From NCBI RefSeq assembly GCF_029953595.1, contig NZ_CP124535.1:930001-994000 (forward strand): a stretch of DNA of 64,000 bases, given 5' to 3'. Source of the DNA: Fuscovulum ytuae. GTDB lineage: Bacteria; Pseudomonadota; Alphaproteobacteria; Rhodobacterales; Rhodobacteraceae. Under the pieces are notes generated by a model. It had not been told where the DNA came from. It saw only the letters and a list, made by a program, of their open reading frames with translations, and searched no databases. Both the position numbers and the translations under genes were made by a program. Of this stretch, positions 5,173-55,480 are shown piece after piece; positions within the stretch are counted from its first letter, which is position 1, and each line of letters begins with the position of its first letter.

Positions 5173-5257
5173 TGGTGCGGGCGAAGGGACTTGAACCCCC
5201 ACGCCGTAAGGCGCCGGAACCTAAATCCGGTGCGTCTGCCAATTCCGCCACGCCCGC
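5173..5257 (-). tRNA. tRNA-Leu (anticodon UAG)
   Basis: On the minus strand the acceptor arms GCGGGCG and CGCCCGC pair (5251-5257 with 5177-5183), followed by discriminator A and an encoded CCA (5173-5175). The anticodon stem CCGGA/TCCGG encloses the loop TTTAGGT, giving anticodon TAG, which reads CUA/CUN leucine codons. A long variable arm with the stem GCGCC...GGCGT and the T-loop GGTTCAAGTCC confirm a class II leucine tRNA of 85 bases. It lies just upstream of tig in the same direction. Confidence 0.95.
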
Positions 5258-52886: not shown

Positions 52887-52915
52887 TTGACGCCCCTGCG
52901 CACCCGCCCTAGTGT
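52887..52915 (+). promoter_or_regulatory. ilvB: Predicted promoter of the ilvBN operon
   Basis: -35 TTGACG (52887-52892), 17-base spacer, -10 TAGTGT (52910-52915). This would start transcription about 20 bases before the leader peptide ATG. It lies in a 409-base gap between the GST gene and ilvB. Confidence 0.65.
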
Positions 52916-52941
52916 CCGCCGCGACGAACAGAGGAACGGAC

Positions 52942-52989
52942 ATGTCCCGCATTCTCGTACTTGTAGGGTCTTGGCGCATGGGGCGGTAA
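52942..52989 (+). CDS. ilvB leader peptide (15 residues)
   Basis: The short frame reads MSRILVLVGSWRMGR. Five consecutive codons (52951-52965) are Ile-Leu-Val-Leu-Val, and they use ATT, CTC, GTA, CTT, GTA, several of which are rare in this GC-rich genome. GAGGAACGG precedes the ATG. Its only role would be to sense charged branched-chain tRNAs, as part of the attenuator described next. Confidence 0.85.
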   Translation: MSRILVLVGSWRMGR

Positions 52990-53043
52990 CGCAAACCCTA
53001 TGGTTCCCATGCGCCCCCGGATCGAAACCCGGGGGCTTTTTAT
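52973..53043 (+). promoter_or_regulatory. Transcription attenuator controlling ilvBN
   Basis: GGCGCATGGG (52973-52982) pairs perfectly with CCCATGCGCC (53006-53015). This excludes the terminator GCCCCCGG/CCGGGGGC (53013-53020 with 53029-53036, then TTTTTATT), because both use 53013-53015. If the ribosome stalls at the Ile/Leu/Val codons the first hairpin forms and transcription continues. If it reaches the stop codon at 52987-52989 it covers 52973-52982 and the terminator forms. This is classical amino acid attenuation. Confidence 0.85.
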
Positions 53044-53087
53044 TGCGCGATGGCGGGGGCTTGGCCCCGAATGACAGGTGATGGCAG

Positions 53088-54842
53088 ATGACGAAACAGA
53101 TGACCGGCGCGAAGATGGTGGTGCAGGCGCTCAAGGATCAGGGCGTCGAGGTGGTCTTTGGCTATCCGGGCGGCGCAGTGCTGCCGATCTATGACGAAAT
53201 CTTCCAGCAGAACGACATCCGCCACATCCTTGTGCGCCACGAACAGGGCGCGGTCCACATGGCCGAAGGTTATGCCCGGTCCACCGGCAAACCGGGCGTC
53301 GTGCTGGTGACCTCTGGCCCGGGTGCCACCAATGCCGTCACGGGTCTGGTGGACGCGCTGATGGATTCGATCCCGCTCGTCGTTCTGACGGGTCAGGTGC
53401 CCACCTTCATGATCGGTACCGACGGGTTCCAAGAAGCCGACACCGTCGGCATCACCCGCCCCTGCACCAAACATAACTGGTTGGTGAAGGACACGGCGAA
53501 GCTGTCGGAAACCATCCATCAGGCCTTCCATGTGGCCACCTCCGGCCGCCCCGGCCCGGTGCTGATCGACATCCCCAAGGATGTGCAATTCGCACAGGCC
53601 GAATACACGCCGATGGAAAAGACCCGCGTCAGCCATTACCAGCCCCGCCGCGAAGGCGACCCCGAACAGATCGCCCGTCTGGTTGAGATGATGGAACAGG
53701 CCGAACGCCCGATCCTCTACACAGGCGGCGGCGTTGTGAATTCCGGCCCCCGCGCCAGTGCGCTCCTGCGCGAACTGGTGGCTGAAACGGATTTCCCCAT
53801 CACCTCCACCCTGATGGGCCTTGGCTCCTATCCGGCCTCCGGCAAGAACTGGCTGGGCATGCTTGGCATGCATGGGCTGTATGAGGCGAACCTCGCCATG
53901 CATGGCTGCGACCTGATGATCAATATCGGCGCGCGCTTCGACGACCGCATCACGGGCCGGGTCAAGGATTTCTCGCCCCATTCCCGCAAGGCGCATATCG
54001 ACATTGACCCCTCCTCGATCAACAAGGTCATCCGCGTCGATGTCCCGATCCTCGGTGACGTGACGCTGGTGCTGGAAGAGGTGCTGCGCCAATGGAAGGC
54101 CCGCGGGTCCAAGACCAACAAGGGCGGCCTTGCCAAGTGGTGGAAGCAGATCAACGAATGGCGCGCCGTCGATTGCCTGTCCTTCAAGAACAGCGAAAAG
54201 ACCATCAAGCCGCAATATGCCCTGCAACGGCTTGAGGCGCTGACCAAAGGCATGGATCGCTACATCACGACCGAAGTGGGTCAGCACCAGATGTGGGCGG
54301 CGCAATTCCTTGGGTTCGAAGATCCCAACCGCTGGATGACCTCGGGCGGGCTTGGCACCATGGGCTATGGCCTGCCCGCCTCCATCGGCGTGCAGATCGC
54401 CCATCCTGAGGCACTGGTCATCAACGTGGCGGGTGAGGCGTCGTGGCTCATGAACATGCAGGAAATGGGCACCGCGATGCAATTCCGCGCGCCCGTCAAG
54501 CAGTTCATCCTGAACAACGAACGCCTCGGCATGGTGCGCCAGTGGCAGGAACTCCTGCATGGCGAACGCTATTCGCACAGCTGGTCGGAATCCCTGCCTG
54601 ATTTCGTCAAACTGGCCGAGGCCTTCGGCTGCAAGGGCATCAAATGCGACCACCCCAAGGACCTTGATGACGCGATCATGGAAATGATCCGCTATGACGG
54701 CCCGGTGATCTTTGACTGCCTCGTGGAAAAGCATGAAAACTGCTTCCCGATGATCCCCTCGGGCAAGCCGCATAATGAAATGCTGCTGGGCGAGGCGGAT
54801 ACGCAGGGCGTCATCGGGGCCAAAGGCGCCGTTCTGGTGTGA
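53088..54842 (+). CDS. ilvB: Acetolactate synthase, large (catalytic) subunit
   Basis: First common enzyme of valine, leucine and isoleucine synthesis, using thiamine diphosphate, FAD and Mg2+. The 584-residue protein has EVVFGYPGGAVLPIYDEI with the ThDP region, HEQGAVHMAEGYARSTGKPGVVLVTSGPGATNAVTGL (about 48-84) with the catalytic Glu, and the ThDP motif ALVINVAGEASWLMNMQE. In that motif GEASWLMN stands where most enzymes have GDGSFQMN, a noticeable change. It is behind the attenuator and followed by ilvN after 77 bases. Confidence 0.96.
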   Translation: MTKQMTGAKMVVQALKDQGVEVVFGYPGGAVLPIYDEIFQQNDIRHILVRHEQGAVHMAEGYARSTGKPGVVLVTSGPGATNAVTGLVDALMDSIPLVVLTGQVPTFMIGTDGFQEADTVGITRPCTKHNWLVKDTAKLSETIHQAFHVATSGRPGPVLIDIPKDVQFAQAEYTPMEKTRVSHYQPRREGDPEQIARLVEMMEQAERPILYTGGGVVNSGPRASALLRELVAETDFPITSTLMGLGSYPASGKNWLGMLGMHGLYEANLAMHGCDLMINIGARFDDRITGRVKDFSPHSRKAHIDIDPSSINKVIRVDVPILGDVTLVLEEVLRQWKARGSKTNKGGLAKWWKQINEWRAVDCLSFKNSEKTIKPQYALQRLEALTKGMDRYITTEVGQHQMWAAQFLGFEDPNRWMTSGGLGTMGYGLPASIGVQIAHPEALVINVAGEASWLMNMQEMGTAMQFRAPVKQFILNNERLGMVRQWQELLHGERYSHSWSESLPDFVKLAEAFGCKGIKCDHPKDLDDAIMEMIRYDGPVIFDCLVEKHENCFPMIPSGKPHNEMLLGEADTQGVIGAKGAVLV

Positions 54843-54919: not shown

Positions 54920-55480
54920 ATGTCCGCGCTCAATATCAAAAAAGGCTCCACCAGCCATTCCGCCTATGACCTGCGCGACCACAACGCCACGGTCATCGAA
55001 AGCCATACGCTGGCGGTGATCGTCGAAAACGAACCGGGCGTCCTTGCCCGCGTCATCGGCCTTTTCTCTGGGCGCGGCTACAATATCGACAGCCTCACCG
55101 TGGCCGAGGTCGATCATACCGGCCACCGCTCGCGCATCACCATCGTCACCTCTGGCACCCCCGCCGTGATCGACCAGATCGAGGCGCAGCTTGGCCGTCT
55201 GGTTGCCGTCTACGAAGTCCATGACCTGACGGCGGAAGGCCCCTGCGTGCAGCGCGAGCTTGCGCTGTTCAAGGTCGCAGGCAAGGGTGACGCACGGATC
55301 GAAGCCCTGCGTCTGGCCGAGATTTTCCGCGCCAATGTCGTCGACTCGACGCTGGAAAGCTTTGTCTTCGAAATCACCGGCACGCCGGAAAAGATCGACG
55401 CTTTCGCCGATCTGATGCGCCCCCTTGGCCTGCGCGAACTGGCCCGCACTGGCGTCGCCGCCCTGTCGCGCGGGGCCTGA
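54920..55480 (+). CDS. ilvN: Acetolactate synthase, small (regulatory) subunit
   Basis: Gives the enzyme feedback inhibition by valine. The 186-residue protein has an ACT domain starting HTLAVIVENEPGVLARVIGLFSGRGYNIDSLTV (about 31-63) and a second, ACT-like C-terminal domain with GDARIEALRLAEIFRANVVDSTLESFVFEITGTPEKIDAF. An N-terminal extension of about 30 residues is present. AGGGAGTGGCGG precedes the ATG. A GC-rich hairpin without T-tract (55489-55523) follows. Confidence 0.96.
   Translation: MSALNIKKGSTSHSAYDLRDHNATVIESHTLAVIVENEPGVLARVIGLFSGRGYNIDSLTVAEVDHTGHRSRITIVTSGTPAVIDQIEAQLGRLVAVYEVHDLTAEGPCVQRELALFKVAGKGDARIEALRLAEIFRANVVDSTLESFVFEITGTPEKIDAFADLMRPLGLRELARTGVAALSRGA

Follow-up and report, generated by a model that had tools for sequence, protein, structure and literature searches.

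What controls transcription of the acetolactate synthase genes ilvBN in Fuscovulum ytuae, and how would this control act? The question is raised by a short region upstream of ilvB in the window, by which we mean the whole analysed stretch of 64,000 nucleotides (contig NZ_CP124535.1, positions 930,001 to 994,000, forward strand). Attenuation of ilvIH in alphaproteobacteria was reportedly predicted by Vitreschak et al. in 2004, and Tarleton et al. (1994) are said to have dealt with attenuation of Caulobacter ilvBN. For the window, a first-pass annotation made from the sequence alone had proposed a complete attenuator with a promoter, a 15-residue leader peptide containing five consecutive Ile/Leu/Val codons, a perfect 10-pair antiterminator helix (here P1) and an overlapping intrinsic terminator. 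All these parts are present in the sequence at the positions assigned to them. Absent from that annotation was P2, a second hairpin. The predicted fold and the alignment indicate that P1 closes a three-way junction and that P2 carries the leader stop codon in its loop. The features are listed below with the evidence for each.

52887–52915, + strand: promoter as a whole (sequence and conservation in family leaders)
52887–52892, + strand: -35 element TTGACG (direct reading of the sequence)
17 nt, + strand: spacer between the -35 and -10 elements (sequence)
52910–52915, + strand: -10 element TAGTGT, weak (sequence)
52930–52935, + strand: Shine-Dalgarno-like AGAGGA of the leader ORF (sequence and conservation)
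52942–52989, + strand: leader ORF of 15 residues, MSRILVLVGSWRMGR, stop codon TAA at 52987–52989 (sequence and relatives)
52951–52965, + strand: control codons ATT CTC GTA CTT GTA, reading I L V L V (sequence and codon usage)
52973–52982, + strand: P1 5' arm GGCGCATGGG, conserved 9-nt part GCGCATGGG, encoding the peptide tail (sequence and alignment)
52983–52992, + strand: P2 hairpin GCG-GTAA-CGC, with a GNRA-type loop at 52986–52989 that contains the stop codon (sequence, fold and alignment)
52994–53005, + strand: P3 hairpin AACC-CTAT-GGTT, the weakly conserved third arm of the junction (fold and alignment)
53006–53015, + strand: P1 3' arm CCCATGCGCC, conserved 9-nt part CCCATGCGC (sequence and alignment)
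53013–53041, + strand: intrinsic terminator with a GC-rich stem of eight pairs (53013–53020/53029–53036) and T5 at 53037–53041 (sequence and alignment)
53088–54842, + strand: ilvB, acetolactate synthase large subunit (Pfam/NCBIfam)
54920–55480, + strand: ilvN, acetolactate synthase small subunit (Pfam/NCBIfam)

In the window, GGCGCATGGG and CCCATGCGCC form 10 Watson-Crick pairs, P1 and the terminator share three nucleotides (53013–53015), and ilvB starts 98 nt downstream of the leader stop codon. When the 76-nt stretch was shuffled 5000 times with its dinucleotides preserved, a perfect helix of 10 pairs arose in 0.08% of cases; of 3197 stretches of the same type sampled across the window, 31 contain one. 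Five consecutive Ile/Leu/Val residues occur in 3 of the 594 ATG-started ORFs of 8–30 residues in the window, this leader included. The RNA z-score for 52915–53045 is -2.72, and the P1 stretch folded alone (52960–53012) is not unusual (z -0.24). A consensus promoter scan of the window listed no promoter at the leader, because the -10 element matches TATAAT at only three of six positions. Since the TTGAC and -10 elements are conserved among relatives, we regard the promoter call as settled. A 24-residue homologue of the leader peptide was matched by no Pfam or NCBIfam model, and Rfam gave nothing at the leader site at the gathering cut-off; the sole match in the window at this cut-off is a tRNA gene (5176–5257, minus strand). 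We also observed that TGTCCG and CGGACA (52914–52943) flank the leader Shine-Dalgarno motif and could form a 6-pair hairpin, which is absent from the predicted fold of 52915–53045.

Conservation in relatives had been named beforehand as a test by which the proposal could fail. We took the upstream sequences of the best 130 ilvB matches among 248 genomes of the family, one per genome; having been chosen by ilvB, all 130 loci have this gene as the downstream neighbour by selection. The leader, its Ile/Leu/Val run, the promoter, the P1 arms and the terminator turned out to be kept far beyond chance. An Ile/Leu/Val-rich leader ORF, picked by the content of these residues alone and regardless of the tail, is present upstream of ilvB in 117 of the 130 relatives. 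A leader score that rewards both Ile/Leu/Val and an RMGR tail is passed by 123 of 130 (L014, L038, L062, L072, L086, L097 and L131 fail). In all 120 leaders scoring 7 or more, TTGAC lies no further than 90 nt from the leader start (73 of 1421 background windows contain it), and in 103 of them it is 53–60 nt 5' of the start codon. At 17-nt spacing, a TAATGT-like -10 element has T, A and T at positions 1, 2 and 6 in 108, 110 and 107 of 120 leaders, respectively, and a Shine-Dalgarno-like motif is found in 111 of 120.

We then relied on an alignment of 122 family leaders (A1), which leaves out L001 (a duplicate), L038, L062 and L131, as well as L009, L033, L046, L080 and L097, where the pattern found no clean T-run. 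In A1, 95% of the terminator cells are paired, and double changes occur in three of the eight pairs. The covariance model trained on A1 (R1) matches 213 of the 248 family genomes, including 190 of the 215 of good quality, and gives no match in the other 35; with 122 of the 248 genomes used for training, at least 91 of the 126 non-training genomes match. In the genome of F. ytuae itself R1 finds the element once; the next best match (19.3 bits, E 0.43) was taken as chance. One family genome (G024) has two ilvB genes with a leader before each, MADIVILVGKWRMGR (L351, G024:C49) and MGPILVVPKRMRMGR (L013, G024:C24). Three loci (L062, L131 and L038) have ilvB and no recognisable leader ORF in the upstream stretch examined; L062 is AT-rich, and L038 retains a terminator. 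We also inspected ilvB upstream regions from 28 other alphaproteobacterial families (the best 28 of the ilvB matches), 27 of which gave enough sequence (L314 has 83 nt). A leader of this kind was found upstream of ilvB in none of the 27, and the RMG-encoding arm likewise in none; in L324, L326 and L329 an ORF passes the Ile/Leu/Val filter and no other part of the element is present.

The control run favours codons that are rare in ilvB. In a comparison of 117 leaders with 30 ilvB genes (partial sequences), GTA accounts for 171 of 305 Val codons in the leader runs (56%) versus 3.2% of 1369 in ilvB, CTA for 52 of 155 Leu codons (34%) versus 1.2% of 1398, and ATT for 51 of 107 Ile codons (48%) versus 8.3% of 1041. 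A sensor based on stalling would need just such rare codons.

The P1 arms GCGCAUGGG/CCCAUGCGC are near-invariant, and both 9-nt arms are exact in 90 of 123 leaders. The perfect 10-pair helix described by the first-pass annotation holds for the window, but its relatives suggest that the conserved unit is nine pairs rather than ten, because the tenth is G-C in only 76 of 121 aligned relatives (47 of the 90 with exact arms). Compensatory changes, which that annotation had advised looking for, are present in P2 and the terminator, whereas P1 hardly covaries: the covariation score over the whole of A1 is 0.070 versus 0.021–0.046 for slid controls, and the eight pairs with double changes are not above those controls (7–10). 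Pairing is kept with different P1 letters in L050 (10 pairs), L072 (7 pairs) and L078 (a CAC/GTG double change), likewise in L055 and L068; in four family leaders (L004, L014, L086 and L091) P1 is largely lost, with at most 5–6 pairs. P2 is CCG-GUAA-CGG in most relatives and GCG-GUAA-CGC in the window, and 105 of 123 leaders have either GUAA or GUGA as its loop. The outer P2 pair is double-changed in seven sequences, in five of them from C-G to U-A and in two to G-C; the next pair is double-changed in a single sequence, and a hairpin of at least three pairs with the stop codon in its loop is found in 120 of 123 leaders versus 133 of 343 ordinary stop codons, although neither the changes nor the counts represent independent events, as the leaders share ancestry. 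P3 is weakly kept (49% of cells paired in A1). For a metabolite riboswitch one would look for conserved unpaired aptamer nucleotides; most of the near-invariant letters of A1 fall within the codon run, P1, P2, the terminator or the T-run. On these comparisons, we consider the leader, control codons, promoter, P1, P2, terminator and the gene behind them to be established.

Since the P1 5' arm encodes the end of the peptide, it might be argued that the RMGR tail is selected as a product, either a functional or an arrest peptide, and that the arms are its by-product. RMGR does end 95 of the 117 leaders picked by Ile/Leu/Val content, and RMG is found in the leaders from Rhizobiales described below, where the encoding arm was itself the basis of selection. 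The Arg codons of the tail, however, are fixed as CGC (112 of 115, first) and CGG (112 of 117, second), which suits the RNA and not the amino acid. Moreover, amino-acid changes that keep the pair occur (Cys TGC in five leaders, Val GTG in two, His CAC with a compensating partner in one), while silent pair-breaking changes at the first Arg (CGA, CGG or AGR) were seen in none of the leaders compared. Fixed Arg codons together with tolerated pair-keeping changes therefore suggest that selection acts on the RNA rather than on the peptide tail, and we regard a selected RMGR product as very unlikely. Still less credible is that a dimeric regulator binds the arms, a perfect inverted repeat of 9–10 bp, at the DNA level. 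The spacing varies (CCATGNGCC starts 20–26 nt from the first base of the stop codon in 112 of 120 family leaders, is not found in the other eight, and the spacing is wider in Rhizobiales), the repeat lies within the predicted transcript, and the compensatory changes indicate pairing in RNA.

Relatives of the junction are found outside the family. The Rfam model Atu_C8 (RF02502) gives only 15.7 bits (E 1.5 and 0.78; cut-off 50) for the window element, which is therefore not counted as a member, and other low-threshold Rfam matches at the site were taken as chance. When aligned to the window, though, the Atu_C8 model matches P1 arm for arm. The P1 arms, the stop-codon hairpin and the terminator follow in the same order, as judged from the Rfam model alignment and from 78 Rhizobiales-form sequences selected on P1. 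These were obtained by scanning named genomes for P1 in its Rhizobiales form (125 pattern matches, at least 120 loci), filtered for at least three Ile/Leu/Val residues of nine and a tail of RMG plus at most six residues. Among the at least 120 loci listed, 83 have a leader on the matched strand (for example, MKISIALIVVGTRMGRMV), 13 have one on the opposite strand and were left out of the alignment and gene tally, and 24 were taken as chance. Of the 83 listed leaders, 42 stand in front of ilvB and 38 in front of an MFS gene resembling that of L132; three were left unassigned. As side observations, neither ilvB nor the MFS gene lies within 6.8 kb downstream of the leader in L152 (Sinorhizobium sp. 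A49) or within 1.5 kb downstream in L208 (Mesorhizobium metallidurans).

The resulting alignment (A2) contains 78 of the 83 (L168 is cut short and four identical sequences were dropped). Because the sequences had been selected on P1, its invariance in A2 was not used as evidence of conservation. P2 is longer in this form and has double changes in six of seven pairs; the whole structure has 74 double-changed cells, compared with 20 after shuffling and no more than 10 after sliding. In 74 of the 83 listed leaders the stop codon lies in the loop of a hairpin with five or more pairs, versus 103 of 2301 ordinary stop codons. In the Nisaea group (the family of G353), six Atu_C8 matches lie above the cut-off, all before an MFS gene, and each has a Val-rich ORF with RMG or RVG and a stop codon in P2. 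Both exact P1 arms are present in five of the six; the sixth (L146) has a G-U pair with Val in place of Met. R1 matches 28 of 135 genomes outside the window's family at E up to 0.1: two that prove to be family members (94 and 106 bits), L273 (78 bits), L274 (37.9 bits) and the rest below 30 bits. Of seven such matches that were read, L275–L278 and L284 look like chance terminators. L273 (MHILIVVVGERRLDR) and L274 (MSIRIVSQYVWRAVL, with few Ile/Leu/Val residues and a stop-in-loop hairpin), the two best outside the family, precede MFS genes that share 60% and 56% identity, respectively, with the one in L132.

How, then, would the leader act on ilvBN? Transcription would start shortly past 52915, and a ribosome would translate the 15-codon leader. 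With ample charged Ile, Leu and Val tRNAs, the ribosome would reach the stop codon at 52987–52989 and cover the P1 5' arm and P2, so that the terminator (53013–53041) could form freely. With these tRNAs scarce, it would stall on the rare-codon run (52951–52965), and the P1-P2-P3 three-way junction, closed by P1 and holding the stop codon in the P2 loop, would fold first. The terminator would then lose much of its drive to form the outer pairs, and polymerase would read through into ilvB. The stalling, the read-through and the role of P1 as the element that weakens the terminator are what we infer from this arrangement. Very probably the region is an attenuator that responds to branched-chain amino acids, and we hold with considerable confidence that ribosome-sensing transcription attenuation controls ilvBN through the steps proposed; a strictly exclusive antiterminator is only partly supported. 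The attenuator most likely raises enzyme output when Val, Leu or Ile run short, yet how the fold disables the terminator is less clear than textbooks suggest.

The difficulty lies in the last step. In equilibrium calculations with a simple ribosome mask, to which folding kinetics are external, completing the terminator stem in the window gains 9.9 kcal/mol alone and 1.5 kcal/mol when full P1 must give up three pairs. By the same calculations, the outermost terminator pair of the window has a probability of 0.78 with the ribosome upstream and 0.997 with the ribosome at the stop codon; for 88 relatives, the mean for this pair is 0.71 with the ribosome upstream, and the mean pair probability of the terminator is 0.98 with the ribosome at the stop codon. 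The overlap between antiterminator and terminator noted in the first-pass annotation does exist (three nucleotides here), but exclusivity does not follow from it. The overlap is two nucleotides in 77 of the 88 relatives measured (88 of 102 leaders with an exact 5' arm), and the minimum-energy fold of the window contains seven P1 pairs and the full terminator together. In L050 and L072, two leaders of the family, no overlap is seen by eye. Rhizobiales-form leaders go further: in all 81 measured (among 83 matches listed), 8–11 nt separate the end of P1 from the terminator. There the terminator is calculated to form, if anything, with higher probability when the ribosome is upstream (0.99) than when it is at the stop codon (0.92), opposite to the model. 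Because the overlap is only 2–3 nt, the hairpins co-exist and the Rhizobiales form has no overlap, mutual exclusion of P1 and the terminator by pairing would be a soft effect at best. On these calculations P1 acts as a soft switch, helped if it folds first, and pairing cannot be the whole story in Rhizobiales.

One could suppose that the junction is a recognised element: its near-invariant P1 would be read by a protein, by RNA polymerase or by the ribosome, which would then act on termination, the leader deciding only whether the junction folds. This would account for the near absence of variation in the P1 letters of the family, in contrast to the compensated variation of P2 and the terminator, and for P1 standing clear of the terminator in the Rhizobiales form, where no other conserved pairing with a probability above 0.1 touches the terminator in the alignment. 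The same P1 letters recur in Rhizobiales, though they were found by searching for them, and, unselected, in five of the six Atu_C8-model matches of the Nisaea group. Yet L050 and L072 build the helix from very different letters, which indicates that this sequence is dispensable in some leaders, and the P1-terminator spacing of -2 in 77 of the 88 family leaders measured suits direct competition or stacking. Overall, we judge recognition of P1 to be unlikely.

A second proposal, to which we give similarly little credence, retains attenuation and adds a second role for the leader RNA of about 120 nt: once released, it would work in trans as an sRNA in the manner of rnTrpL from Sinorhizobium meliloti, with the junction mainly stabilising it. 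The related Atu_C8 is filed in Rfam as an sRNA, the leader sequence is strongly conserved, and S. meliloti offers a precedent in rnTrpL/peTrpL, described in the accessible part of the source as a trans-acting attenuator sRNA and a leader peptide (PMC10117765). The conserved letters, however, lie mostly within the P1 helix and are not exposed, and 80 of the 83 listed Rhizobiales-form leaders stand before either ilvB or the MFS gene, a position expected of a cis element. Returning to cis-acting attenuation, we note that the Atu_C8-model matches L132 and L145–L149 are Val-rich leader ORFs with an RMG or RVG tail and a terminator. The 'Rhizobiales sRNA Atu_C8' of Rfam is therefore probably a leader of this attenuator type rather than a free sRNA (or a free sRNA alone), which would provide a likely function for this family.

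The leader itself represents an expected type of control, whereas its anatomy departs from the textbook: the stop codon sits in the loop of a covarying hairpin, and the closing helix is almost frozen and need not touch the terminator. This anatomy makes it possible to test whether a ribosome-sensing leader can control termination without two mutually exclusive hairpins. The accessible passages of an alphaproteobacterial motif screen refer to 'an ilvB leader peptide' described before (PMC1273637) and those of a Sinorhizobium survey list an ilvIH cis-regulatory element (PMC2573895), both citing Vitreschak et al. 2004; attenuation of Caulobacter ilvBN through a leader is likewise described (PMC4117421, in the part available). 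As presented in such citing papers, these systems resemble the window element in that acetolactate synthase genes are preceded by a terminator and a leader peptide containing branched-chain codons, whereas a stop-codon hairpin and a likeness to Atu_C8 are absent from the descriptions found there. Atu_C8 shares with the window element the arms GCGCAUGGG/CCCAUGCGC and the terminator after them; it differs in a longer P2 and a terminator that lies beyond P1 instead of overlapping it. The uORFC-8-2 motif before cysS, also from Rhodobacterales, is similar in its tandem-codon leader ORF, two stems and terminator, but its cysteine codons lie within the first stem and, in the available text, a three-stem junction is rare and without covariation (PMC8632094). 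The Corynebacterium ilvB leader uORF, compared by its published description as far as accessible (PMC11109978; PMC11857589), has an Ile/Leu/Val-rich leader, an antiterminator stem and a terminator stem. It belongs to a different phylum and has two stems, P1 with the antiterminator sequence and P2 as the terminator (PMC11109978). In the accessible, chiefly open-access literature, we found neither Atu_C8 described as an ilv leader nor a stop-codon hairpin. The window element thus belongs to a known type of control; its anatomy is unusual, and we found no description of it there.

The leader also draws attention to a transporter. The L132 protein passes the Bcr/CflA model TIGR00710, and the other MFS genes were matched to L132 by tblastn. 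On the strength of the leader in front of it, the MFS gene is probably controlled by branched-chain amino acid supply, that is, a predicted branched-chain amino acid responsive transporter. A broader and rather doubtful extension is that Rhodobacterales, Rhizobiales and Nisaea share one module, including Atu_C8, in which the ribosome licenses the junction and P1 controls termination without pairing exclusion, by contact with polymerase or a protein or in trans, and which also governs the MFS transporter; if this were true, the MFS protein would be a transporter responsive to branched-chain amino acids. The leader module was observed before a Bcr/CflA-like MFS gene in Rhizobium, Mesorhizobium, Devosia, Pelagibacterium and Nisaea, as well as in L273 and L274. 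The MFS-linked members are 38 of the 83 listed Rhizobiales-form loci, L132, L145–L149, L273 and L274.
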